NCBI RefSeq assembly: GCF_013318015.2
Contig: NZ_CP115842.1
Location: forward strand, 1,735,001 to 1,799,000
Direction of reading: 5' to 3'
DNA from: Agrobacterium tumefaciens
Lineage (GTDB): Bacteria > Pseudomonadota > Alphaproteobacteria > Rhizobiales > Rhizobiaceae
DNA length: 64,000 nt
Within the stretch, counting starts at the first letter, position 1. Every line of letters starts with the position of its first letter. The position numbers were made by a program, and so were the translations under genes. The notes beneath the pieces are model-generated. The model ran no database searches. It was not told where the DNA came from and saw only the letters and a program-made list of their open reading frames with translations. Shown piece by piece: positions 7,641-62,924 of this stretch.

Positions 7641-8453
7641 TCAGGGATTGTCGCGCTTGAAAATCCAGTCGTGATCGGGGTGGTTCTTGAAGCGCCATTT
7701 GCGCATCGGCCCGGCCATCACGTTCAGATAATACATCTCGTAGCCATAAGGCGCGCCGCAGGGGTGGTGTCCCTTGGGAACCAGCACGACATCGCCGTCC
7801 GCCACAGCCATGGTCTCGTCCAGCGATCCATCCTCGGTGAAAACGCGCTGGAAACCGAAACCCTGCGCCGGGTTGAGCCGGTGATAATACGTCTCTTCCA
7901 GATAGGTCATATCGGGGTAATTGTCTTCGTCATGCCGGTGCGGCGGATAGGACGACCAGTTGCCCGACGGGGTGAACACTTCCGTCACCAGGAGACTATC
8001 GGCGACATCGCGTTCTTCCATGGCGATGGGGAAAATGTAGCGCGTATTGGCGCCTTTGCCGCGCTCGGTCAGTTGCACGCCATCGGGACCGATCTGTTGC
8101 GCTTCGCGGCTACCTTTTTCACCCGGTGCGGTGCAGACACCGACGGTGCAATCCGTCGTGGCCGTCAGCGACCATTCGGAGCCGGCGGGGACATAAACGC
8201 AGTGCGGCGGCTTGCGCTCGAACACGTTCATGCGGTCGCCGAGTTCACCGAACTCCTTGCCCCCGGCGGAAATCTTCGCCTTGCCTTCGACAAGCACCAG
8301 AATGACTTCCGTATCGCCAGTCTTCTCGGCTGCGGTTTCACCGGGCTTCAGACGATAAAGGCCGAAACCGACATAACCCCAATCCGCGCTTTGGGGCGTG
8401 ATGTCGTGCACCTTGCCGCTTGTCGCGACCGGCTTGCGCAGAAGTGAGGTCAT
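7641..8453 (-). CDS. iolB: 5-deoxy-glucuronate isomerase
   Basis: 270 residues with AAGGA before ATG 8453. IolB converts 5-deoxy-D-glucuronate to 2-deoxy-5-keto-D-gluconate, the fourth step of myo-inositol breakdown. The double-cupin fold is seen; the C-terminal half carries the metal-ligand cluster PPHRHDEDNYPDMTYLEETYYHR (H172, H174, E186/187, H191). Length and sequence are typical. It sits in the iolCDEB operon downstream of iolE, separated by 100 bp that contain a strong hairpin. Confidence 0.96.
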   Translation of the reverse strand: MTSLLRKPVATSGKVHDITPQSADWGYVGFGLYRLKPGETAAEKTGDTEVILVLVEGKAKISAGGKEFGELGDRMNVFERKPPHCVYVPAGSEWSLTATTDCTVGVCTAPGEKGSREAQQIGPDGVQLTERGKGANTRYIFPIAMEERDVADSLLVTEVFTPSGNWSSYPPHRHDEDNYPDMTYLEETYYHRLNPAQGFGFQRVFTEDGSLDETMAVADGDVVLVPKGHHPCGAPYGYEMYYLNVMAGPMRKWRFKNHPDHDWIFKRDNP

Positions 8454-49309: not shown

Positions 49310-50209
49310 ATGCGCATCGCCATCGACCCGTTCATGCACCGCCATCTCAGCCTCGAAGCCCTTCCCGCCAAAGTTAGGGAGCTCGGCTACGACTGGATCG
49401 AGCTCAGCCCGCGCGCCGATTTCCTCGAATGGTTCAAGGCGCCACGCGTGTTTCCCGAAAGAATCCGCTCGTTCAAGAAGGCGCTGGCGGCCGAAAACGT
49501 CAAGATTGCCTCGCTGCTGCCGATGTATCGCTGGGCCTCCAATGACGAGACCGAGCGGCAGGCGGCAGTGAAGCACTGGAAACGCGCCATCGAGATCGCC
49601 GTCGAACTGGAGGTCGATACGATGAACTCGGAATTCGGACGGGGTCCACACCCCGACAAGGGTTCATGCTATTGCTGCCATACCGGCTCGATGATCGAAG
49701 CCTGCGAGGACGCCTGGTGGCGCTCGATGGAAGAGCTTGTGCCGATCTTTGAACGTGAGGGCATCCAGCTCAATGTCGAACCGCATCCGGAAGACTGGTG
49801 CGAGACGCTGCAGCCAGCGCTCGACATCATCCGCACCGTCAATTCGAAGAATGTGAAGTTTCTCTATTGCGCCCCGCACACCTTCTATTTCGGCGACGAC
49901 ACCAAGGCGATGCTGCGCGAGGCAAAAGATGTTCTTGCCCACGTTCATGTCGGCGACACCTTCAATCACAAGGCAAGCTCCGGCCTGCGTTATATCCTCA
50001 ATCCGCCCGGGACCCAGGCGCGTGTGCATCAGCATCTCAACATCGGCCAGGGTGAGGTGCCGTGGGACGACTTCTTCGGCACGCTTTCCGAAATCGGCTT
50101 CGACGGCATCATGACCTCCTGTGTTTTCGCGTGGGAGGACAGGGCCGATGAATCGGGCAGGTTCATGTGCGCCGAGATCAACAACTATATCGAAAAGTAC
50201 CGCAAGTGA
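49310..50209 (+). CDS. TIM-barrel sugar phosphate isomerase/epimerase, IolH-like
   Basis: 299 residues. It shows the AP-endonuclease-2-type TIM barrel: [65 protein letters not shown] (metal-site Glu), [10 protein letters not shown]. The segment RWS-ER-AVK-WKR-IEIAVE resembles Bacillus IolH, whose exact reaction is unsettled. There is no signal peptide. It precedes iolG by ten bases, so it is in one operon with iolG and iolI. Confidence 0.83.
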
Positions 50210-52059: not shown

Positions 52060-52245
52060 CTTGCGTTCGAATACAGGCTGATTGGTAGAAAACACAGAGA
52101 AATCAATTCCGCTTTTACGGATGATGCTGTAATCTTTGCGTGACAAAATAGAGCAGCAATCGGGCTCGGGTATTCTTGAAATCAACTGCTTTGTGCCGGT
52201 TTCTTGCCCGCCCCATCCTTAAAAGAGTGGGTGAATTTCCCTTTT

Positions 52246-53292
52246 ATGAAAATAGACAGGAAAACGACGCTTAAGGATGTGGCGCAGCAGGCGAATGTTT
52301 CGCTCAGCACCGCTTCGCACGCCCTTAACGGCACGGCCCCCTTGACCACGCTGGTGCGCGAGCGGGTGCTGGAAGCGGCCCGTTCGCTCGGTTATCTCGA
52401 AAACCGCCGACAGAAGGCGACGATTGCGACCCTGCGCGTGGTGTTGCTGGCAATGACCAACGATGCGGCTCCGCAAAGTGATCTCAACATGGTCAGCTGG
52501 ACGATGCTGAACGGCTTCCGGCGCGAATGTGAACGGCGCGGCATTCGCATCGTTCCCTTCGTCAGCGCCACAAGCCGGCTTGACCCTGTCGCGGTGGTGC
52601 AGGCGGCGGATGCCGACAATGTGGATGGCATCGTGGTGTTGAACGATGACCGGTCGCAACTGGTTCAGGCGCTTTCGGCGCTCGGCAAACCGGTGGTGCT
52701 GATTAATGGCGAGGACCCGGCCATGATCGTCGATACGGTAACGGCCGAGAACCGTTTCGGCGCCCGCCTCGGCATCGAGCACCTGCTTTCCCTTGGGCAT
52801 CGCAATATTCTGCACATTACCTGGAAGGGGCGCACGACGATCCGCCGCCGTTACGACGGCTATAGCGACGCATTTCTTGCGGCGGGGTTTCCGGTGCCTG
52901 CGGATATGGTCATTGAGGTGGAGAGTTATGAACCCCAATGGGGCGAAACCGCCATTCGTCGCCTGCTGGCCGAGGAGCGCCCGCTCAGAAATGCAACGGC
53001 GATTTTCTGCGCGGCCGACAATCTGGCACTCGGCTGTCTGAAAGCACTGACAGAAGCCGGTGTCCGGGTTCCCGATGACGTTTCGGTATTGGGTTTTGAC
53101 GATATCATGCCGGCGGCCTTCAGTGCGCCGCCGCTCAGCACCATTCAATTGCCCGCCGACAGGCTGGGTGGTGCGGCACTTTCCCTGCTGGAGCAGCGGC
53201 TTGTCGCCGCCGACCCGACCCGGCCTGCGCACCGGCTGGAACTTGGCTGTCGACTTGTGCTGAGGGGCAGCATCGCACCGCCCCCCAAGTGA
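52246..53292 (+). CDS. LacI-family regulator of the pectin-oligosaccharide locus
   Basis: 348 residues from ATG 52246; GTG 52231 (AAGAG upstream) is an alternative. Helix-turn-helix TTLKDVAQQANVSLSTASHALNGTAPLTTLVRERVLEAARSLGY, then an effector domain. It converges with the MalG-like permease gene (ten bases between stops) and so sits at the far end of the locus from the divergent promoter it may control. Effector probably a galacturonate-containing oligosaccharide (inferred). Confidence 0.9.
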   Translation: MKIDRKTTLKDVAQQANVSLSTASHALNGTAPLTTLVRERVLEAARSLGYLENRRQKATIATLRVVLLAMTNDAAPQSDLNMVSWTMLNGFRRECERRGIRIVPFVSATSRLDPVAVVQAADADNVDGIVVLNDDRSQLVQALSALGKPVVLINGEDPAMIVDTVTAENRFGARLGIEHLLSLGHRNILHITWKGRTTIRRRYDGYSDAFLAAGFPVPADMVIEVESYEPQWGETAIRRLLAEERPLRNATAIFCAADNLALGCLKALTEAGVRVPDDVSVLGFDDIMPAAFSAPPLSTIQLPADRLGGAALSLLEQRLVAADPTRPAHRLELGCRLVLRGSIAPPPK

Positions 53293-53302
53293 TACCGAGC
53301 TT

Positions 53303-54361
53303 TTACTTCATGCCCGTCCCAGCAATGCCTGTCGTGATATAGCGTTGCAGGAACAGGAACACGACGGTAACCGGCGCCAGGCTGAGGAAGGTCATGGCAA
53401 GAATATAGTGCCATTGCACCGAGAACTCGCCCTGGAAAGCGTTCAGGCCCACCTGCAGTGTGAAGTTCTCGCGGCTGCTGAGGACGATCAACGGCCAGAG
53501 GAAGTCGTTCCAGCGCCACAGCACCGAGAAGATTGCGAGAACCGCTAGTGCAGGTGCCGTCAGCGGCAGGATGATGCGCCAGAAGATGCGGAATTCGCTG
53601 GCCGCATCGACGCGTGCGGCTTCGATCAGTTCGTCCGGGATCGTCAGCATGTATTGCCTGAGCAGGAACACGCCGGTTGGCGTCGCGACGGTGGGAATGA
53701 TGACACCCCAGAGATTGTCGACGAGGCCGACACCGACGATAACAAGATAGGCTGGCACCATGACGACGGTAAGAGGGATCATCAGCGTGGAGATGATCAG
53801 CACGAAAATCGCCTTCTCGCCGCGGAAGCGGTATTTCGAGAGAGCAAACGCCGCCATGGCGTTGACGATCAAGGTTAAAACGGTCGCGACAACGGTGACG
53901 AAGACCGAGTTTTTCAGGAAAGTCAGGAAGTTGAACTGGGTCAAGGGATCGGTGAAATTCTGCGTCGCGATCGTCAGTTTCTGGACGGGCGACATTTCGC
54001 GTGTGTCGACGCTGACCGGCGGGCCGGGATTGGCCGGATCCACCATCTGCGCCTTGATGCCAACGCGCCGGACCATGGCCATCTCCCGCTCCATGCCGTC
54101 GATGGTGACGGTCCAGAGGCTGAGCGGCCTGTCATAACCTGGAACTTCCACCTGCACGGCGGCGCGCGGCAGAAGGCTCGGCGGAAACCGTGTGATCTCG
54201 GCTTCCGGCTTCAGCGAGGACATGGCGGCCCAGACAACGGGTATGAGCACCGCGAGCGTTCCGCCAATGAGCCACACCCAGGAGAGAATATCGGTGAGAC
54301 CGATCCTGCCGGGGCGGCGGGTTCGCGTCAGGAAAGTGACTGCGTTCATATTGCCGGACAT
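53303..54361 (-). CDS. Carbohydrate ABC permease (MalG-like)
   Basis: 352 residues with GGAG before ATG 54361. Six membrane helices with a long periplasmic loop between helices 1 and 2 (residues about 55-145, unusual in length for the family, with a DRPLSLWTVTIDGM segment). Coupling loop DELIEAARVDAASEFRIFWRIILPLTAPAL. Two bases follow the MalF-like stop. Last gene of the six-gene operon. Confidence 0.93.
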   Translation of the reverse strand: MSGNMNAVTFLTRTRRPGRIGLTDILSWVWLIGGTLAVLIPVVWAAMSSLKPEAEITRFPPSLLPRAAVQVEVPGYDRPLSLWTVTIDGMEREMAMVRRVGIKAQMVDPANPGPPVSVDTREMSPVQKLTIATQNFTDPLTQFNFLTFLKNSVFVTVVATVLTLIVNAMAAFALSKYRFRGEKAIFVLIISTLMIPLTVVMVPAYLVIVGVGLVDNLWGVIIPTVATPTGVFLLRQYMLTIPDELIEAARVDAASEFRIFWRIILPLTAPALAVLAIFSVLWRWNDFLWPLIVLSSRENFTLQVGLNAFQGEFSVQWHYILAMTFLSLAPVTVVFLFLQRYITTGIAGTGMK

Positions 54362-54363
54362 GA

Positions 54364-55359
54364 TCAGGACTCCATCTTTTTGCCGAGGCGCAGTTGCACG
54401 AGCGTCAGCGCGAGAAGAACAAGGCCCATCAGAACCGATGCGGCGGATGCGAGGCCGAAGAGCCTGAGATCGCTGCCAAAGGCCATCTGGTAGATATATT
54501 GCACCACGAACGTGTTGGCCGTGCCCGGACCGCCGCCATTGGTCAAAACCCAGGCTTCATCAAATATTTGCACTGAGCGGATCATCAAAAGGATCAGTAC
54601 GACGAGAAGGTTGGGAGCCAGCAGCGGCAGGGTGATGCGCAGCAATGTGCGTCGGGGCGAAGCGGCGTCGATTGCGGCTGCTTCATAAAGGTCTTTGGGA
54701 ATGGCCTGCAGCCCTGCCAGCAGGATGAGCGTGTAAAAGCCCATGTGGAACCAGACGGATACGACCACGACGAAGAAGCGCGACCAGCCGACATCCAGCA
54801 GGAAGATTTCCGGCGGCACGCCGAGCATCTGGAAGAAGGCGTTCAGCAGTCCGTTGCGGTCAAGAAACCATTTCCAGATGAGGCCGATGACGACAGGTGA
54901 CAGCAGCACGGGATAAAAGAACATGGCGCGGAAGAAGCCGCGCGCGGCAATCGCCCTGTTAAGAATGAGGGCCGTGACCAGCGCGACGAACAGCGTGGCG
55001 ACAACGTTGAAGCCGACAAACCAGAGCGTGTTCCAGATCGCTGTCCAGAACAGCGATTCCCGGCAGCTTCCGGGGTCCATATAGCTCTGGCAATCGAGTA
55101 GCTTGCCGAAATTCTCCAGACCGACAAACGGGCGGTCTGTGATCAGCAGCTCGGTGCCGCCGGTAAAGGCGTAACCGACGGCGATGGCAATCGGCAGGAA
55201 GGTGAAGATGCCGAAGAGAACGAGGTTCGGCATCAGGAAAATATAGGGCATGCGTCTTTTGCCGATCAGCCGCTCTATGAGGTTGAGCGGCACTTCGGCG
55301 ATTGCCATCACGGCGTCGAGTACGCGGTCGGACAGTCTCGCAAGCGTCGGATTGGCCAT
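54364..55359 (-). CDS. Carbohydrate ABC permease (MalF-like)
   Basis: 331 residues from ATG 55359 with GGGAGAG upstream, one base after the ATPase stop. CUT1-family features: PYIFLMPNLVLFGIFTFLPIAIAVGYAF and the coupling loop KDLYEAAAIDAASPRRTLLRITLPLLAPN. It partners the MalG-like subunit. Confidence 0.93.
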   Translation of the reverse strand: MANPTLARLSDRVLDAVMAIAEVPLNLIERLIGKRRMPYIFLMPNLVLFGIFTFLPIAIAVGYAFTGGTELLITDRPFVGLENFGKLLDCQSYMDPGSCRESLFWTAIWNTLWFVGFNVVATLFVALVTALILNRAIAARGFFRAMFFYPVLLSPVVIGLIWKWFLDRNGLLNAFFQMLGVPPEIFLLDVGWSRFFVVVVSVWFHMGFYTLILLAGLQAIPKDLYEAAAIDAASPRRTLLRITLPLLAPNLLVVLILLMIRSVQIFDEAWVLTNGGGPGTANTFVVQYIYQMAFGSDLRLFGLASAASVLMGLVLLALTLVQLRLGKKMES

Positions 55360-55360
55360 G

Positions 55361-56466
<1,106 letters not shown>

Positions 56467-56467
<1 letters not shown>

Positions 56468-57819
56468 TACCTGCTCCCTTCGGGCAAGGTCGTCTCTGCG
56501 ACGATCTCTTTTGCATTCCAGCCCTCGGGTAAGGGCATCGTTCTTCCAATGGCAACGTCGCGCGCAGAAAATCCGTGAACGCCGGACAGATAGACCGCAG
56601 GCATGCCGCCGGGGTAATCTTCAAGTCCGACGATCCTGCCGTCGGCGCTGCGTGTCCAGGCATTGGCGCGGCCGGCAGCCTCCGGACTTGGCGCAATGTC
56701 CGCATTGGTAGGGCGAAGATCATATTGCAGGCCGGTGCCGAGTTTGCCGGGCTGCTGCGACAGCGAAATGCGCGCGAGCGTGACATTGTGGATGCCGGCG
56801 CTCGAGGTGGCGACGAGGTTTATCGCCCCTTCCATCGAGCCGCTCAGGTCTTCCACCACAAGGTTTTCAACCTTACCGGCCTGACGTTCCGGCCGGCGGT
56901 CTACCACGGTGACAGTCACGGCTTCGCCCGATCCCCAGAACCCGCCCGGCGTTTCGTGGCACTCCGCCTCGATCCGCGAAAAGCGGATATTGCGCATGGC
57001 GCCGCCATCGCGGGAGAAAAGGCCGATGCCGCGATTGGATGCGATGACTTTGCAGTCCTCGAACGCCACATCGGTGAAATCGCCGAAGGATTCCGTGCCG
57101 AGCTTCAAGGCGCAGCTCATGCTTGAGACAGTGCAGCGGCGAACCGTGATATCGGCGCAGGCGCCAACAGCCTTGCCATCCGGTCCGGCGCTGGTCTTCA
57201 GGCAGATACCGTCATCGGCGGTGGAGATGGAGCAATCCTCGATCAGTGCGCGCCGGCAGGCATCCAGCACGATGCCGTCGGTGTTGGGCAGGCGGCGATC
57301 GTTTTCGACACGGATGTTGCGGAAACTCAGATCTTCGCAATCGACCATGTGCAGGGTCCACATTGGCGAACCGCTGACGACGAGGTTTTCAAGGCGAACG
57401 TCGCGGCAGGATTCCAGAACCATGACACGCGGCCTCTTTTTCGCGGGCACATAGGTTCCCATGGCTTCGTCGTCACCGATGATGAAGTTCTCACCGCCAG
57501 CCTCGATACGGCCGGGGCCGGTGACGGCGATGTTGCTCGCGCCCTTTGCGACGATCATGCCGCGATCGGAATCCTCGGCGATGACAGAAACGGACGTATG
57601 GGCAAAGGCGTCGTAGTCGGAAATCGGCGCAAGCACCGCGTCTTGTGCAAGGTGAAGTTCCACGTCGCTTCTAAGATGAAGGCCGCCGCTGACATGCCGT
57701 CCGGCCAAGAGCGACACGACGCCGCCGCCTGCAGCCGATGCTGTATCTATTGCCTGCTGGATATCGGCAGTGGCGTCACGTTCCTCGGCGGCTATGGTGA
57801 TATTGGTGTGAGCACTCAT
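56467..57819 (-). CDS. GH28-like (polygalacturonase family) beta-helix glycosidase, intracellular
   Basis: 450 residues, right-handed beta-helix. Two of the GH28 active-site motifs are present: NTDG (179-182) and DD in TADDG (202-203). The usual GHG is replaced by SCA-type sequence in [18 protein letters not shown] (about 231-248) and the RIK motif is not recognisable. There is no signal peptide, so it acts on imported oligosaccharides. It resembles the plant-inducible PicA-type polygalacturonase-like proteins of Agrobacterium. The missing His suggests a different bond specificity, such as rhamnogalacturonan. It overlaps the GH105 gene by four bases. Confidence 0.82.
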
Positions 57820-58910
57820 GATGCCTGCGGCCTCTTCAGAAAGACGTCGATCAGCAGCAGCATCGTCAGCGCCTGCCCATAGGGTGTCGGCAAATTGGGA
57901 ATGCGGCGGTAGAAATCGAGGTCGTGGCCCATGGGCGTTCCGTCCGACACACCGTGCACGACGCCTTCATCATCGATATTGCCCAGCACCGCCTTCAGCG
58001 CCCGCTCGGCATGGGCGCGGTTTTCTTCGCCGAGAATACCTGCCTCGATGCCGCGCAGAATGCCATAGGCGATGCCAGCGGTTGCCGACGTCTCGACCGG
58101 CGAAGTCGGATCGTCGAGGAGCGTGTGGAACATGCCATCCTCGCGCTGATACTGGCGCAGCGAACGCACCTGGCTTGCAAGCACATTGGCGAGGAAACGT
58201 TTGTCCTTTTCGGCAAGCGTCGGCACCAGTTCGAAGAGTTCGGGGATTGCAACGGTGATCCACGAATTGCCGCGCGCCCAGAAGGCATGCGCAAAATTGT
58301 GGCGTCCGATGAAGGTCCAGCCGTGATACCACAGCCCGGTCACGGGGTCTGACAGGTAACGCGCATGGATCATGAACTGGTAGACTGCCTCATCGATCCA
58401 GTCCTGGCGTTTGCAGACCACACCGGCGCGGGCAAGGAACAGACAAGCCATGAACAGCGTGTCGTCCCAGAGTTCACCCTCGTTAAGCCGTTCCTTGACC
58501 ACGTGCTGGAAGCCGCCATCTTCGGTTTTCGGCAATTTGTGCACAAGCCAGTCGGCCCAGTCTTCCACCAGCGCCCGGAAATCCGGCCGGTCGACATGTT
58601 CGGTGAGGATGACGAGCGGCAGCATTGGCGCGGAACTGTTGATCTGGCGTGGCGGCAGGCCACGATCGATCTGCCAGCCGTACCAGGTCACGAGATCGTC
58701 CAGAGCTTTCTGGTCGTTCGCGGCAAGTGCCCGGCGCAGGAAGCCGTAAAGGCCAACGCCCACTTCCCAATCCCATTCATCGAACTGGATCTTGCCGTCG
58801 GAACTGCCGCTTGCCAGGCCTTCCTGTATGCCCTTGAGGCGGCTGAAGGCGGCGGCGACGCTGTCGATCGTCGTTCTGAGAGTGTCTTTCTCGATGCTTT
58901 GCTGGTTCAT
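57816..58910 (-). CDS. GH105 unsaturated rhamnogalacturonyl/galacturonyl hydrolase
   Basis: 364 residues from ATG 58910; the longer frame runs into the next gene. (alpha/alpha)6-barrel of the YteR/YesR type: EWDWEVGVGLYGFLRRAL, ELWDDTLFMACLFLARAG with the catalytic Asp, WYHGWTFIGRHNFAHAFWARGNSWITVAIPELFELVP, and ETSATAGIAYGI. It removes the 4,5-unsaturated uronate left by pectate or rhamnogalacturonan lyases. No signal peptide: cytoplasmic. Fourteen bases follow the 841-residue gene. Confidence 0.9.
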   Translation of the reverse strand: MNQQSIEKDTLRTTIDSVAAAFSRLKGIQEGLASGSSDGKIQFDEWDWEVGVGLYGFLRRALAANDQKALDDLVTWYGWQIDRGLPPRQINSSAPMLPLVILTEHVDRPDFRALVEDWADWLVHKLPKTEDGGFQHVVKERLNEGELWDDTLFMACLFLARAGVVCKRQDWIDEAVYQFMIHARYLSDPVTGLWYHGWTFIGRHNFAHAFWARGNSWITVAIPELFELVPTLAEKDKRFLANVLASQVRSLRQYQREDGMFHTLLDDPTSPVETSATAGIAYGILRGIEAGILGEENRAHAERALKAVLGNIDDEGVVHGVSDGTPMGHDLDFYRRIPNLPTPYGQALTMLLLIDVFLKRPQAS

Positions 58911-58923
58911 CTGGTCATTCCGC

Positions 58924-61449
58924 TTAGGAGTAAAATGGCTGTGCCACGCCGTTGCCTGCGGCGGTTTTGGCACTGTCGAAGGTGATCTGTGGCTGTGGCT
59001 GCTCGTGGTCGAAGGCCATGGCTTGCCCGCCGATGGTGAAGTTGCCGTCCCAGTTGAGGGAGAGTTCGGGGCCACCGGGCGGTGTGACAGACAGCAGGCG
59101 CCTGTCGGCGTCGAACATGACCTGCGTGGCGAGAATTCTTTCGCGGAAGTGCGCGAATGCGTTCGTATCTCCGCAGCCGATAATGCCGAGCCAGCCAGCG
59201 CGGCGGCCAGGTGATCTGATCTCGCGGTCGGCGGTGGCGCCTGCTGTTACAGGTTCAAGCCCATTGGTCGCATAAAGTGCTGCAAAGCCGCGGCCCGCGC
59301 GGGTGATGAGCCAGTTACCCTTCGTCACCACCTCGTCCAGCCCGTCGCGACCGAGATAGGCATGGGTCCAATCATTGCGGTGATCATCCGTATCGAAGAC
59401 CATCATGGCGATATCCCGGTGCTGCGCCACGCGCGGCAGGATGCCGCTGCCGGCCCAATAAGAGGGGCGCTGTGTGCCCCAGGGGTCGTCTTCGCCCGGA
59501 TGGTTGACCCACAGCCGCGCCATCGGATGGCCGGCAAGCTTGATGTCCATGACGTGCTGCTGGTGGCCCTTGCGACCTGTCTTGTGGTCCACCACAGTGG
59601 AAAGCTGGGCTGCTTCGTTCTTGAAAAGCACGAGTTTGCCCGGCTCCAGTCCCTGCGCATAACGCGCCTCCACCATGCGGCCGCCTGTCAGTTGCGACAG
59701 GGCGGTAAGATGCGGTGGCGGCAGGTAATCTCCACAGCAGAACATCGGCAGCGAGGCGACGCCATTGTTGAGCCAGCCCTGACCGAAGGCAACTTGCGCA
59801 AAAGGTGCAAGTTCCGTCAGCGGCCCGGCGCGCAGCTCCTTGTCATAGGCTCTGCCCTGGGAACCGGAGGGAACGCCACCAAGCGTATGCAGAGCGATCA
59901 TTTCGAAAATGAGATCGAGCTGGTGGCGGGCGCGGGCGGCAAGTTCCGGTTCGGCCCAATGTTCGATGGCGAGAAGGCCGATGAAATCCACGGGATAATA
60001 GGCGGCCGAATTCCATTCGGCGAGACCATGCGCCTCGACGCTGTCGAACCAGCGCTGCAGCCGCTCAGTGGCGAGTGCCGCCTGTTCTCTGCCCGTGCGC
60101 CCGGAGGCGCTGAAGATGGCGTCCGGCAGATAGTCTCCCGCGAGCAGCTGGCTGGTATGGAAGCACAGAACGTGGTTTTCGCTCCAGAACCACATGACGT
60201 CGTTGCCGGGTTCGTCCACCCAGTATCGATAGGAGAGAATAGAAGAGTGGATCCGCTCAAGCATCTGAGGGGGAAGCTGGTCACCATAGGCGCGCACCAG
60301 CCAGAGAAGCGGCACCAGCACGAAATCTGAACAATCCTCACGCCGGTCGATGGACCGCAGCGTTGCGTCGACGATGCCGGAAATCGTCTTCATGTCACCG
60401 CTGCCGGTAGCGACCATGGCCAGCGCGCGGCCGATGCGCCATGCACCAAAGCGGGCGCTGAAGGACAATGCCGCTTTCTTTCGCCCGGCAATATCGGTGG
60501 CGGCCGGTTGTGGCGCCATATCGCCCATGAAGGCTGCGTCGATGACGCGCGTTACCGTTCCGGCACCTGAACCGATGGTGATCCTGACGCCATGATATCC
60601 GTCCGAAATGCCTGCCGTCTCGGGGATCGTCAGGGTCGATTGCCCGGCTTTCAGCACGGTATCGACCTCGGCAAGGGCGGCGCGCTCGTGGCCGTGGCTT
60701 TTCACCGCAATGTGGACGGGAAGGTCGCTGGCAGGTGCTGCCCCGAAAACCAGCTCGAGGGCCGCGCCGGAAAAAACGTCGCGTGCGGGGCGAACATCGC
60801 GCACCAGTGCGGCAAGACGTTTCGTTTCTTCCCGGTCGAGCGGCACCGGCAGCACGACGGTGAGCGGCGTGGCGTCCGTAACCTCAAGCTCGAAGAACCA
60901 GATGATGTCACGTTCCGCCAGATCTTCGCAAAGCAGCAGCACTTCGTTATCGCCGGCCGCAAGTTCGAGCGTGATATCGCGGCTGCTTTCGACATTGCGG
61001 ATAAAGGGCTCAAAGCGGACCTGCTCCACGCCGCCCACCCAGATGCGCACGCCGCCGCAGGTGCGCAGCCGGAAATGCGCCTGTCTTGTGGTGTCGCTGC
61101 GGAACGTGCCCTTCAGCCAGCGCTGCACATGGGTCGGAACGTGCCAGAAACCGGTGAATTCAACGCGTCGGTTGGAACCCGGCAGGTTGAGGTGCGAAAC
61201 CGTAAAGCTGGAGTCGGGCGCGATGTCGCGGCCGATCATCGTCTGTTGAAAGGCTTTGCGGCACGGCAGGTCGCCAACATCCACAAAGCCGTTGATGAAG
61301 CGATAATTGACCCGGTCGTCCGCCGGTGCCGCAATTCCCGGAAATGAGGTTTCCACCAGATCCGAGACGATCCAGGCGGTAACCGTTTCGCCTGGCGGCA
61401 CGGTATATGTGGGCTGCGACATGCCCGTCGCCAATGGTCCATCCGTCAT
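58924..61449 (-). CDS. Unrecognised 841-residue protein of the pectin locus, possible new glycosidase
   Basis: 841 residues with GGGAGGCG before ATG 61449. No signal peptide. Residues about 1-200 look like a beta-sandwich (FTGFWHVPTHVQRWLKGTFRSD; RLRTCGGVRIWVGG) as in glycosidase accessory domains. The region about 330-620 is alpha-helical with aromatic/acidic motifs YWVDEPGNDVMWFWSENHVLCFHTSQLLAG, GLAEWNSAAYYPVDFIGLLAI and PSGSQGRAYDKEL, suggesting an (alpha/alpha) toroid. The C-terminus is beta-rich. I cannot assign a family. As first gene of the GH105/GH28/transporter operon it probably acts on a pectic oligosaccharide. Confidence 0.8.
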   Translation of the reverse strand: MTDGPLATGMSQPTYTVPPGETVTAWIVSDLVETSFPGIAAPADDRVNYRFINGFVDVGDLPCRKAFQQTMIGRDIAPDSSFTVSHLNLPGSNRRVEFTGFWHVPTHVQRWLKGTFRSDTTRQAHFRLRTCGGVRIWVGGVEQVRFEPFIRNVESSRDITLELAAGDNEVLLLCEDLAERDIIWFFELEVTDATPLTVVLPVPLDREETKRLAALVRDVRPARDVFSGAALELVFGAAPASDLPVHIAVKSHGHERAALAEVDTVLKAGQSTLTIPETAGISDGYHGVRITIGSGAGTVTRVIDAAFMGDMAPQPAATDIAGRKKAALSFSARFGAWRIGRALAMVATGSGDMKTISGIVDATLRSIDRREDCSDFVLVPLLWLVRAYGDQLPPQMLERIHSSILSYRYWVDEPGNDVMWFWSENHVLCFHTSQLLAGDYLPDAIFSASGRTGREQAALATERLQRWFDSVEAHGLAEWNSAAYYPVDFIGLLAIEHWAEPELAARARHQLDLIFEMIALHTLGGVPSGSQGRAYDKELRAGPLTELAPFAQVAFGQGWLNNGVASLPMFCCGDYLPPPHLTALSQLTGGRMVEARYAQGLEPGKLVLFKNEAAQLSTVVDHKTGRKGHQQHVMDIKLAGHPMARLWVNHPGEDDPWGTQRPSYWAGSGILPRVAQHRDIAMMVFDTDDHRNDWTHAYLGRDGLDEVVTKGNWLITRAGRGFAALYATNGLEPVTAGATADREIRSPGRRAGWLGIIGCGDTNAFAHFRERILATQVMFDADRRLLSVTPPGGPELSLNWDGNFTIGGQAMAFDHEQPQPQITFDSAKTAAGNGVAQPFYS

Positions 61450-61475
61450 AATGGATCGCCTCCCGTCGATCTTTA

Positions 61476-61495
61476 TGAAATTATTTTCACAAATC
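61476..61495. promoter_or_regulatory. Operator-like element before the 841-residue gene
   Basis: TGAAA-TTA-TTTTCACAAATC (plus strand) contains the palindrome TGAAA-N4-TTTCA. It lies 26 bp before the leftward start codon and is 17/20 identical to the reverse complement of 61610-61629. Confidence 0.6.
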
Positions 61496-61609
61496 TATTT
61501 TCGCTTTGTTGCGGCGATTTGTGCGATTTAGCCGAAACAAACAGCTTGACGTTTATTCTGTCAAGTCGCAAAACAAGCGAAATCGAATTAAGACGAGGAG
61601 CTTCAATTC

Positions 61610-61629
61610 GATTTGTGAAAAGTTTTTCA
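61610..61629. promoter_or_regulatory. Matching operator-like element before the binding-protein gene
   Basis: The minus-strand reading is TGAAA-AAC-TTTTCACAAATC, with palindrome TGAAA-AGTT-TTTCA on the plus strand. It ends 14 bp before ATG 61644 and abuts the Shine-Dalgarno. A third partial GATTTGTG lies near 61515-61522. Confidence 0.6.
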
Positions 61630-61643
61630 TTGGGAGGATGAGC

Positions 61644-62924
61644 ATGCTGAAACTGTTTTCGGGCGTCAGCGCCCTCGTATTGGCCTCTATCGCCGGCCTT
61701 TCGGTCGCAGAGGCCGAGACAAGAACGATCACGTTCCTTTTTACGGATGACGACCAGGGTTATGTGCAGCGCATGTCTGAACTCAGCAAGGAGTTCGAGG
61801 CGGCCAATCCGGGCGTGAAGATCAACTTCGTGTCTTCCGGTTATGATGCCGTTTCCAAGCAGCTGCCGGTACAGCTAGCGGTGGGCGAGGGGCCGGATGT
61901 TGCCAAGATCACCGACTGGCAGCTCGCTTCCTACTATCTCGACATGCGCCCCTACATGAAGGATGCGGATGGCTTTGCCAAACTGCACGGTTCGAGCCTT
62001 GCCCAGCTTCGTTTGCCTGGTGTCAACGATCCGCAGTCGATCAACGGTTACATGGCCTCGCAGACGCTGAACCTGCCCTTCGTCAACAAGACGCTGTTCG
62101 AGCAGGCGGGTGAACCCTTGCCCGGCCCGACCGCGAAATTGAGCGACATTGTCGAGGCGTCCGCGCGCGTTGCCAAGTCGACCGGCGTGCAGATTCCCTT
62201 CACCATGGACCGCTCCGGCCACCGCTTCTCCGGCGGCGCCTTCGCTTATGGTGCGACCTATGTGAAGGACGGCAAGTTCAGCTTCCCCGACGACGCGGCG
62301 AAAAAATACATCTCCGACATCTACTCATGGACGCAGAACGGCAGCTTCCCAAAGGAAATGTGGGGTGCTGCGGGTGGCTCGCAATACAAGAACATGGGCG
62401 ATGAATTCGTCAACGGCAATGTCGTGACCTATCTGGCCGGCAACTGGATGGTCAATCCGTTCCAGAACAAGATCGGTGACAGCTTCGAATGGACCGCGAT
62501 CAACGCCCCCTGCGGCGATGCCGGTTGCTATGCCATGCCCGGCGGCACGGCGATTGTCGGCTTCAAGCGCACCAAATATCCCGAAGATGTCGCCCATTTC
62601 GTCGAATTTCTCGGCTCTGAAAAGGTGCAGCGGGAAATCGCCGAAAATTACGTGATCCTGACGGGCGCCGAAATCGTCGATCCGCAATACAAGCTGAAGA
62701 GCGAAAACGCCAAGGCGGCGATGAAGGTCTTTCTGGACAACAAGAAGAATGTGCCGCAGGCCGCCCGCGAATTCGAGCACGCCAAGGGTGGCACTGCCAT
62801 GTATCAGCAGATCGTCCAGCGCATGAGCCAGCTCATCGTTGGCGAACTGACGCTCGACCAGACCTACAAGGTCTTGGAAGACGATGTCGCCAAGATCAAT
62901 GAGGCCGTTGCGGTCAAGAAATGA
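61644..62924 (+). CDS. Carbohydrate ABC binding protein (SBP family 1) for pectic oligosaccharides
   Basis: 426 residues from ATG 61644, placed six bases after GGGAGG (the ATG at 61638 is too close). Signal peptide about 1-24 (SVAEA-ETRTI). Family 1 features: LSKEFEAANPGVKINFVSSGYDAVSKQLPVQLAVGEGPDVAKITDWQLASYYLDM and a C-terminal GELTLDQTYKVLEDDVAKINEAV. It is transcribed away from its permease/ATPase operon, from the shared divergent promoter with twin operator-like sites. Presumed ligand: (rhamno)galacturonan oligosaccharide. Confidence 0.92.
   Translation: MLKLFSGVSALVLASIAGLSVAEAETRTITFLFTDDDQGYVQRMSELSKEFEAANPGVKINFVSSGYDAVSKQLPVQLAVGEGPDVAKITDWQLASYYLDMRPYMKDADGFAKLHGSSLAQLRLPGVNDPQSINGYMASQTLNLPFVNKTLFEQAGEPLPGPTAKLSDIVEASARVAKSTGVQIPFTMDRSGHRFSGGAFAYGATYVKDGKFSFPDDAAKKYISDIYSWTQNGSFPKEMWGAAGGSQYKNMGDEFVNGNVVTYLAGNWMVNPFQNKIGDSFEWTAINAPCGDAGCYAMPGGTAIVGFKRTKYPEDVAHFVEFLGSEKVQREIAENYVILTGAEIVDPQYKLKSENAKAAMKVFLDNKKNVPQAAREFEHAKGGTAMYQQIVQRMSQLIVGELTLDQTYKVLEDDVAKINEAVAVKK

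Follow-up and report, generated by a model that had tools for sequence, protein, structure and literature searches.

Rhamnogalacturonan lyases are placed in the polysaccharide lyase (PL) families PL4, PL9, PL11 and PL26, and the chondroitin AC/hyaluronate lyases of family PL8 are extracellular enzymes. The toroid-type polysaccharide lyases consist of a toroid followed by an antiparallel β domain. For one of them, the PL15 exo-alginate lyase Atu3025 (3A0O, 3AFL), Table 4 of PMC12088678 gives His311, Tyr365 and His531 as the catalytic residues of 3A0O. That table places the Asn and Tyr 53−57 positions apart in PL12, PL15 (exo-heparinase), PL17, PL35 and PL39, 63 apart in PL23 and 59 apart in the chondroitin AC lyase II of PL8; a further row for PL8 has Asp, not Asn. 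The DNA analysed here, referred to as the window, comprises 64,000 nucleotides of Agrobacterium tumefaciens (contig NZ_CP115842.1, positions 1,735,001 to 1,799,000). On its minus strand, at 58924..61449, it encodes a predicted toroid-fold lyase of 841 amino acids (aa) with the working name TOR, whose residue numbers are used throughout. TOR is probably a cytoplasmic lyase of the (α/α)-toroid plus antiparallel-β superfamily, in a family absent from the libraries searched. It would β-eliminate imported rhamnose-uronate oligosaccharides, most likely those of rhamnogalacturonan I, and thereby feed an enzyme of glycoside hydrolase (GH) family GH105.

The open reading frame (ORF) of TOR has 841 codons, exactly as in the original prediction, and starts with an ATG at 61449; GGGAGG stands 9 nt 5′ of this ATG. 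In a search of 5.8 billion proteins, 533 of the 7996 candidates scored were TOR homologues at E<=0.001, and the source genome (6.0 Mb) carries one intact copy, on G000:C2, so TOR is not a chance ORF. The closest named genome among the loci fetched, an A. tumefaciens strain (L002), carries a copy that shares 98% protein identity with TOR. Among the 120 of the 533 matches that were listed, most had no name or were called ‘hypothetical protein’; the few computer-given names included ‘Heparinase II/III-like’, ‘PA14 domain-containing’ and ‘Alpha-L-rhamnosidase six-hairpin glycosidase’ (P0023, uniprot). No signal-peptide-like start was visible in the N-terminal sequence, which makes an intracellular location plausible.

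Two AlphaFold2 models of TOR were obtained, with mean predicted local distance difference test (pLDDT) values of 87 and 89. The domains run from a PA14-like N-terminal β-sandwich (residues about 12−201; 60847..61416, minus strand, as are all TOR features) and a fibronectin type III-like β domain (about 210−309; 60523..60822) to an (α/α) toroid (about 317−590; 59680..60501) and a C-terminal antiparallel β domain (about 593−825; 58975..59673), the last two also being recognized by Foldseek and VIA-align. When the toroid and C-terminal β domain were searched with Foldseek, 14/14 PDB matches at E<0.001 were toroid-fold lyases. The top rows for the full-length model were mainly GH2 hydrolases with TM-scores of about 0.12. 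This likeness was set aside, as most GH2 rows align to the N-terminal β domains; with the catalytic part as query, the 50 rows displayed held no GH2 but included GH146 and GH92 at E 0.005−0.07. The toroid-type polysaccharide lyases have this modelled order of toroid and antiparallel β domain, and the fold of dermatan sulfate epimerase (6hzn) agrees with it as well. A toroid-lyase fold is well supported by the models. The structure prediction and fold search proposed with the original prediction thus led to a toroid-type polysaccharide lyase fold, in agreement with its beta-sandwich/helical toroid/beta-rich domain order and its suggestion of a polysaccharide-active enzyme.

In the sequence-family searches, TOR matched no Pfam model at E<=1, neither Hepar_II_III_C nor DUF4962 among them, and no NCBIfam model at E<=10. 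Relatives scanned against Pfam likewise yielded no family for it. Searches of PDB sequences with the single sequence and two profiles of the TOR family (79 and 87 rows) gave only chance-like rows at E<=10, the best with E 0.007. No PL15 chain was retrieved at this threshold by the TOR sequence or profiles from a PDB set that includes 3a0o, 3afl and 6lja, nor were solved members of PL17, PL35, PL39, PL12 or PL21. A Heparinase II/III-type set (10 sequences kept from 31 loci) gave no signal with TOR. PL26, PL27 and PL42 were absent from the rows listed in the sequence and fold searches, an unlisted family being still possible. Across Pfam, NCBIfam and the PDB sequences, TOR thus belongs to no family described so far, and within this scope the original statement that no family was recognized holds; CAZy profiles were outside the libraries compared, and TOR possibly falls in an existing or recent PL family. 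No literature naming this protein in its title or abstract was found, most subscription journals being outside the scope of that search.

Conservation was assessed in 34 aligned homologues that included Bacillota, one haloarchaeal sequence and a second TOR subfamily at about 30−33% identity, for which 752 of 7995 scored candidates were homologues at E<=0.001. Invariant in 34/34 were Asp372, Asp375, Trp410, Trp420, Glu424, Asn425, His426, His431, Glu478, Tyr484, Arg533, Tyr535, Gln630, Trp665 and His696, and His650 was kept in 33. The acidic and aromatic motifs that had looked conserved in the single sequence were thus borne out. Asn425-His426 (60172..60177), in the motif WFWSENHVLCFH, form a candidate carboxylate-binding/catalytic pair, and Tyr484 (59998..60000), in EWNSAAYYP, is a candidate catalytic Tyr, giving an Asn-to-Tyr spacing of 59. 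Arg533-x-Tyr535 (59845..59853), in QGRAY, lies in a loop modelled at low confidence.

For profile comparison with PL15, an HHalign target set was built on L095 (G000:C2:89170−91497), the source-genome counterpart of the solved alginate lyase Atu3025. L095 aligns with 3A0O over its full length (1726 bits), and the numbering of His311, Tyr365 and His531 is identical in the two. The TOR profiles aligned to this set with E 0.018−0.18 and probabilities no higher than 2.5%, values that are not significant by themselves. Without forcing, the local alignment spanned 66 columns and placed Asn425/His426 on Ser310/His311, with Tyr484 outside. In the extended alignments (-mact 0), which scored weakly, His426 fell on His311 in 4/4 and Tyr484 on Tyr365 in three (A2, A4 and A3, the profile set of the second subfamily; A1 failed), and with A4 and A2 Arg533 also fell on Arg410. 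Column-shuffled queries reached a maximum of 26.0 in 40 trials, compared with 29.06 observed in the same mode. A global-mode run aligned 14 columns, none of these residues included.

Weighing against the lyase reading, the β-domain His of toroid lyases has no clear invariant match in TOR, because position 629 is His in 18/34, Tyr in 15/34 and Phe in 1/34 of the aligned homologues. For the SHSHGD-type His motif, the nearest TOR motif by eye, GHQQH, becomes GYQET in the distant subfamily.

Gene partnership was examined in the best 80 of the 188 TOR loci found; these are mostly from Rhizobiaceae, and the counts are not independent. The gene after TOR belonged to the GH88/GH105 family in 76 of the 80 loci, and GH28 was second after TOR in 73. 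A divergent solute-binding protein (SBP) gene was present in 71, and a matching ATP-binding cassette (ABC) ATPase lay downstream in 70. GH88 was missing from the other four: the L066 and L079 sequences stop 9 and 549 bases past TOR, respectively, and no GH88 gene lies within 10 kb in L080 or L081. The setting originally described, with GH105, GH28 and importer genes, is therefore kept across the Rhizobiaceae loci read.

More distant relatives were also inspected. L097 and L098, from another class of the same phylum (40 and 39% identity), have the order TOR-GH88-ABC-permeases-LacI with a divergent SBP gene and without GH28. In Thioclava (37%), TOR-GH88-ATPase-permeases-LacI is adjoined by kduD-kduI, and on the other side by a rhamnose ABC transporter, rhaM and a sugar kinase, the only distant locus with rhamnose genes. 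The order in Phyllobacterium (32%) is GH88-kduI-TOR-SBP-permeases-ATPase-kduD; Pseudosulfitobacter (30%) has kduI-TOR plus kduD, with GH88 about 6 kb off. In a Clostridia record of Subdoligranulum variabile (Bacillota, 31%), Pfam assigns the ORF after TOR to GH88 (E 2.9e-89), and this ORF also scores above the BglB cut-off; GH88 adjoins TOR in L099 (about 30%) too. Linkage was weaker elsewhere: GH88 lies <1 kb away in L104 and several kb away in L100 and L101, and was not found in the stretch read of L102 and L103. GH28 is not a fixed partner of TOR, as it is absent beside several of these relatives. Three of the 120 listed homologues are fusions of 1189−1201 aa in which TOR carries a C-terminal PF07470 domain; they come from contigs of 7−14 kb of one source (‘lgn’). 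The neighbours of the distant archaeal relative L153 include genes for a sugar isomerase and for a Gfo/Idh/MocA protein.

In the window, TOR heads a tight run on the minus strand with overlaps or near-zero gaps. It is followed, after 13 nt, by the GH105 unsaturated uronyl hydrolase (57816..58910, ATG at 58910; Pfam, PDB, NCBIfam and motif), the GH28-like protein (56467..57819; Pfam, NCBIfam) and, all assigned by Pfam, an ABC transporter ATPase of the MalK/UgpC type (55361..56467), permease 1 (54364..55359, start chosen by eye in an ORF opening at 55422) and permease 2 (53303..54361). The SBP gene (61644..62924, plus strand; Pfam; start by eye, ORF opening at 61506) is divergent from TOR. The promoter-proximal position in the original prediction stands for the GH105, GH28-like, ATPase and permease genes; the SBP gene is not part of the run. 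The neighbouring GH105 matched PF07470 at E 8e-105, and its nearest solved proteins were 3PMM, 3QWT and 4XUV, named as cytoplasmic or GH105 proteins. It shares the W-x-D motif with the five solved GH105 relatives shown, and we take the Asp of this motif to be the catalytic Asp of GH105. The NCBIfam equivalog name of this gene, ‘beta-galactosidase BglB’, clashes with both PF07470 and the GH105 PDB relatives and is probably a misnomer carried over from a gene name. NCBIfam names the GH28-like protein ‘polygalacturonase PglB’, with rhamnogalacturonidase, polygalacturonase and galacturonidase models matching below their cut-offs. According to a review (PMC6683767), which cites Mathews et al. 2019, PglB is Atu4560 of strain C58 and contributes to the degradation of polygalacturonate.

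For the reaction, the mode of cutting and the substrate, we infer the following from the fold, the conserved residues and the operon. The ABC importer would bring in uronic-acid-bearing oligosaccharides. Within the cleft of the toroid, Asn425 and His426 would bind and neutralize the uronate carboxylate, and Tyr484, with His426 or Arg533/Tyr535, would take the C5 proton and protonate the leaving O4, so that the chain would be broken by β-elimination. The 4,5-unsaturated uronate left at the non-reducing end would be removed by the GH105 of the next gene. That TOR makes the unsaturated end for GH105 is suggested by the toroid-type lyase fold together with the invariant Asn-His, Tyr and Arg residues. 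An unsaturated uronate is next processed by KduI and KduD; their genes lie side by side elsewhere in the source genome (G000:C2, near 295,831), and the freed uronate could pass through them in this order. The most likely substrate is a rhamnogalacturonan-I oligosaccharide, cut at Rha-α-1,4-GalA (rhamnose, Rha; galacturonic acid, GalA), with GH105 then freeing rhamnose from ΔGalA-Rha. Rhamnogalacturonan I is favoured because of the rhamnose genes beside the Thioclava TOR and the GH28 gene in Rhizobiaceae. The enzymatic step in oligosaccharide breakdown first proposed for this gene is thus partly supported, with the lyase-type fold, motifs and operon setting behind it, and is refined to a predicted β-elimination.

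Other explanations were considered. TOR could be a lyase of the same kind acting on a Rha-α-1,4-GlcA end (GlcA, glucuronic acid), as in arabinogalactan-protein, gum or ulvan-type material, with GH105 removing ΔGlcA. This substrate seems less likely given the GH28-like gene in the operon of 73/80 loci, the NCBIfam models (rhamnogalacturonidase, polygalacturonase, galacturonidase) that this gene touches below their cut-offs, and the plasmid hosts listed below, mainly plant symbionts. A hydrolase, a phosphorylase or a non-catalytic binding protein of toroid fold, with the unsaturated ends made outside by secreted lyases, would fit the occurrence of toroid folds in glycoside hydrolases (the GH146 and GH92 rows), the GH2 rows ascribed above to the N-terminal β domains and the six-hairpin glycosidase name of P0023. 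Such a role is considered improbable: the catalytic part alone had only lyases at E<0.001 and no GH2 in its 50 rows, the invariant Asn-His, Tyr and Arg together resemble the residue set of a lyase, and conservation this strong argues against a mere binding protein. It is also unlikely that GH105 meets only externally unsaturated oligosaccharides, since its near-constant and sometimes fused toroid-lyase partner would be hard to explain.

Least probable of all is a C5-epimerase that would use the same fold and residues to invert a uronic acid of the oligosaccharide at C5 before another enzyme cuts. The fold alone is compatible with an epimerase (6hzn; PMC8006597). The usual partner, however, is GH88/GH105, known members of which act on unsaturated uronates, the products of lyases, and the kduI/kduD genes beside distant TOR copies also expect an unsaturated uronate. 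β-Elimination by a cytoplasmic lyase is thus the preferred function. A further-reaching proposal, advanced only tentatively, is that TOR founds a new PL family of intracellular toroid-fold lyases for rhamnogalacturonan-type oligosaccharides. Such a family would form a two-enzyme unit with GH105 (sometimes fused), cut without the conserved β-domain His of other toroid lyases, contain at least two subfamilies, extend from Rhizobiaceae via further members of the Pseudomonadota to Clostridia and have a distant haloarchaeal relative.

The spread of TOR was sampled in genomes and plasmids, with at most two first-look candidates scored per genome. TOR was matched in 9/398 genomes drawn across the phylum, three of the nine with two copies, and in 1/385 drawn across the class, the source genome only. 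Of the 72,556 records in the plasmid collection, 200 matched, mainly from Rhizobium (123), Pseudosulfitobacter (40) and Sinorhizobium (12); the hosts listed are mainly plant symbionts. Haladaptatus (3) is the archaeal outlier, and in the one record read the alignment covered 54% of the query at 25% identity. If the proposed function is true, hundreds of unnamed or ‘hypothetical’ proteins gain a testable function, and rhizobia and agrobacteria gain a missing intracellular step between the import of plant-wall oligosaccharides and GH105. The step would sit in the operon of a pglB-type gene, which the review links to polygalacturonate degradation (PMC6683767).

Several further features of the window and source genome were recorded. 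The 194 bp between the divergent TOR and SBP genes (61450..61643) contain an imperfect 26-nt inverted repeat (81%; arms 61475−61500 and 61605−61630) that flanks the divergent promoter region, possibly a site pair for a LacI-type regulator; a scan of 61400−61700 showed neither a sigma-70 promoter nor a terminator pattern. A LacI-type regulator gene (52246..53292, plus strand; Pfam, NCBIfam; start by eye, ORF opening at 52204) stands convergent at the far end of the run. Beyond it, at 49310−52022, two xylose-isomerase-like triose-phosphate isomerase barrels surround a dehydrogenase of the Gfo/Idh/MocA group, whose NCBIfam match (iolG-type) falls slightly short of the cut-off; the genes beside L153 are similar in kind. 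Past the SBP gene, 63156−63998 encodes the start of a protein that runs off the window end, with a signal-like N-terminus and without Pfam or NCBIfam match; a gene of this type stands beside SBP in 14/80 loci (L002−L013, L068, L069), from Agrobacterium and near relatives. A KduI-family match at 7644−8453 was rejected as pathway support, being IolB (5-deoxy-glucuronate isomerase, TIGR04378), which shares PF04962 with KduI and is hence easily mistaken for it. About 14 kb from kduI-kduD lies a second GH88-family gene, and the region G000:C2:280875−296511 is probably another uronide-use cluster.

Compared with the described lyases, TOR is by its model of a known kind at the fold level and, by its sequence, outside the families described in the sequence libraries searched. 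The rhamnogalacturonan lyases of PL4, PL9, PL11 and PL26 have the substrate and reaction predicted for TOR; none was among its sequence matches, and the Aspergillus enzyme (3njx, 1nkg) gave Foldseek E>0.04 and a TM-score of 0.09. The chondroitin AC/hyaluronate lyases, presumably of PL8, fit TOR in their Asn, Tyr and Arg and in the spacing of 59, but no TOR counterpart was identified for their catalytic His between Asn and Tyr and there was no sequence match. Atu3025 (3afl) was the top Foldseek match of the catalytic part (E 4.9e-7). Like TOR, it has a toroid and a β domain, and its His311/Tyr365 lay on His426/Tyr484 in three of the four weakly scoring extended alignments; it shows no significant sequence similarity (best HHalign E 0.018). 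The SHSHGD His motif of Atu3025 has no invariant counterpart in TOR, its gene partners differ, and its relative L095 carries Hepar_II_III_C and DUF4962, neither of which is in TOR. The best VIA-align Z values, up to 12.4, were those to the PL35 GAGases/chondroitinase (8KHV/8KHW/9O3Q) and the PL17 (4NEI) and PL39 (6JP4) alginate lyases, which match TOR in no sequence search. Their catalytic β-domain His has no clear invariant counterpart in TOR and their Asn-Tyr spacing is 53−57 against 59. They share with TOR the two-domain catalytic layout with Asn and Tyr in the toroid (residues from PMC12088678). If the proposed function is right, a member of the toroid fold joins the enzymes that open rhamnose-uronate bonds and illustrates the extent of variation possible in the catalytic residues of the fold.
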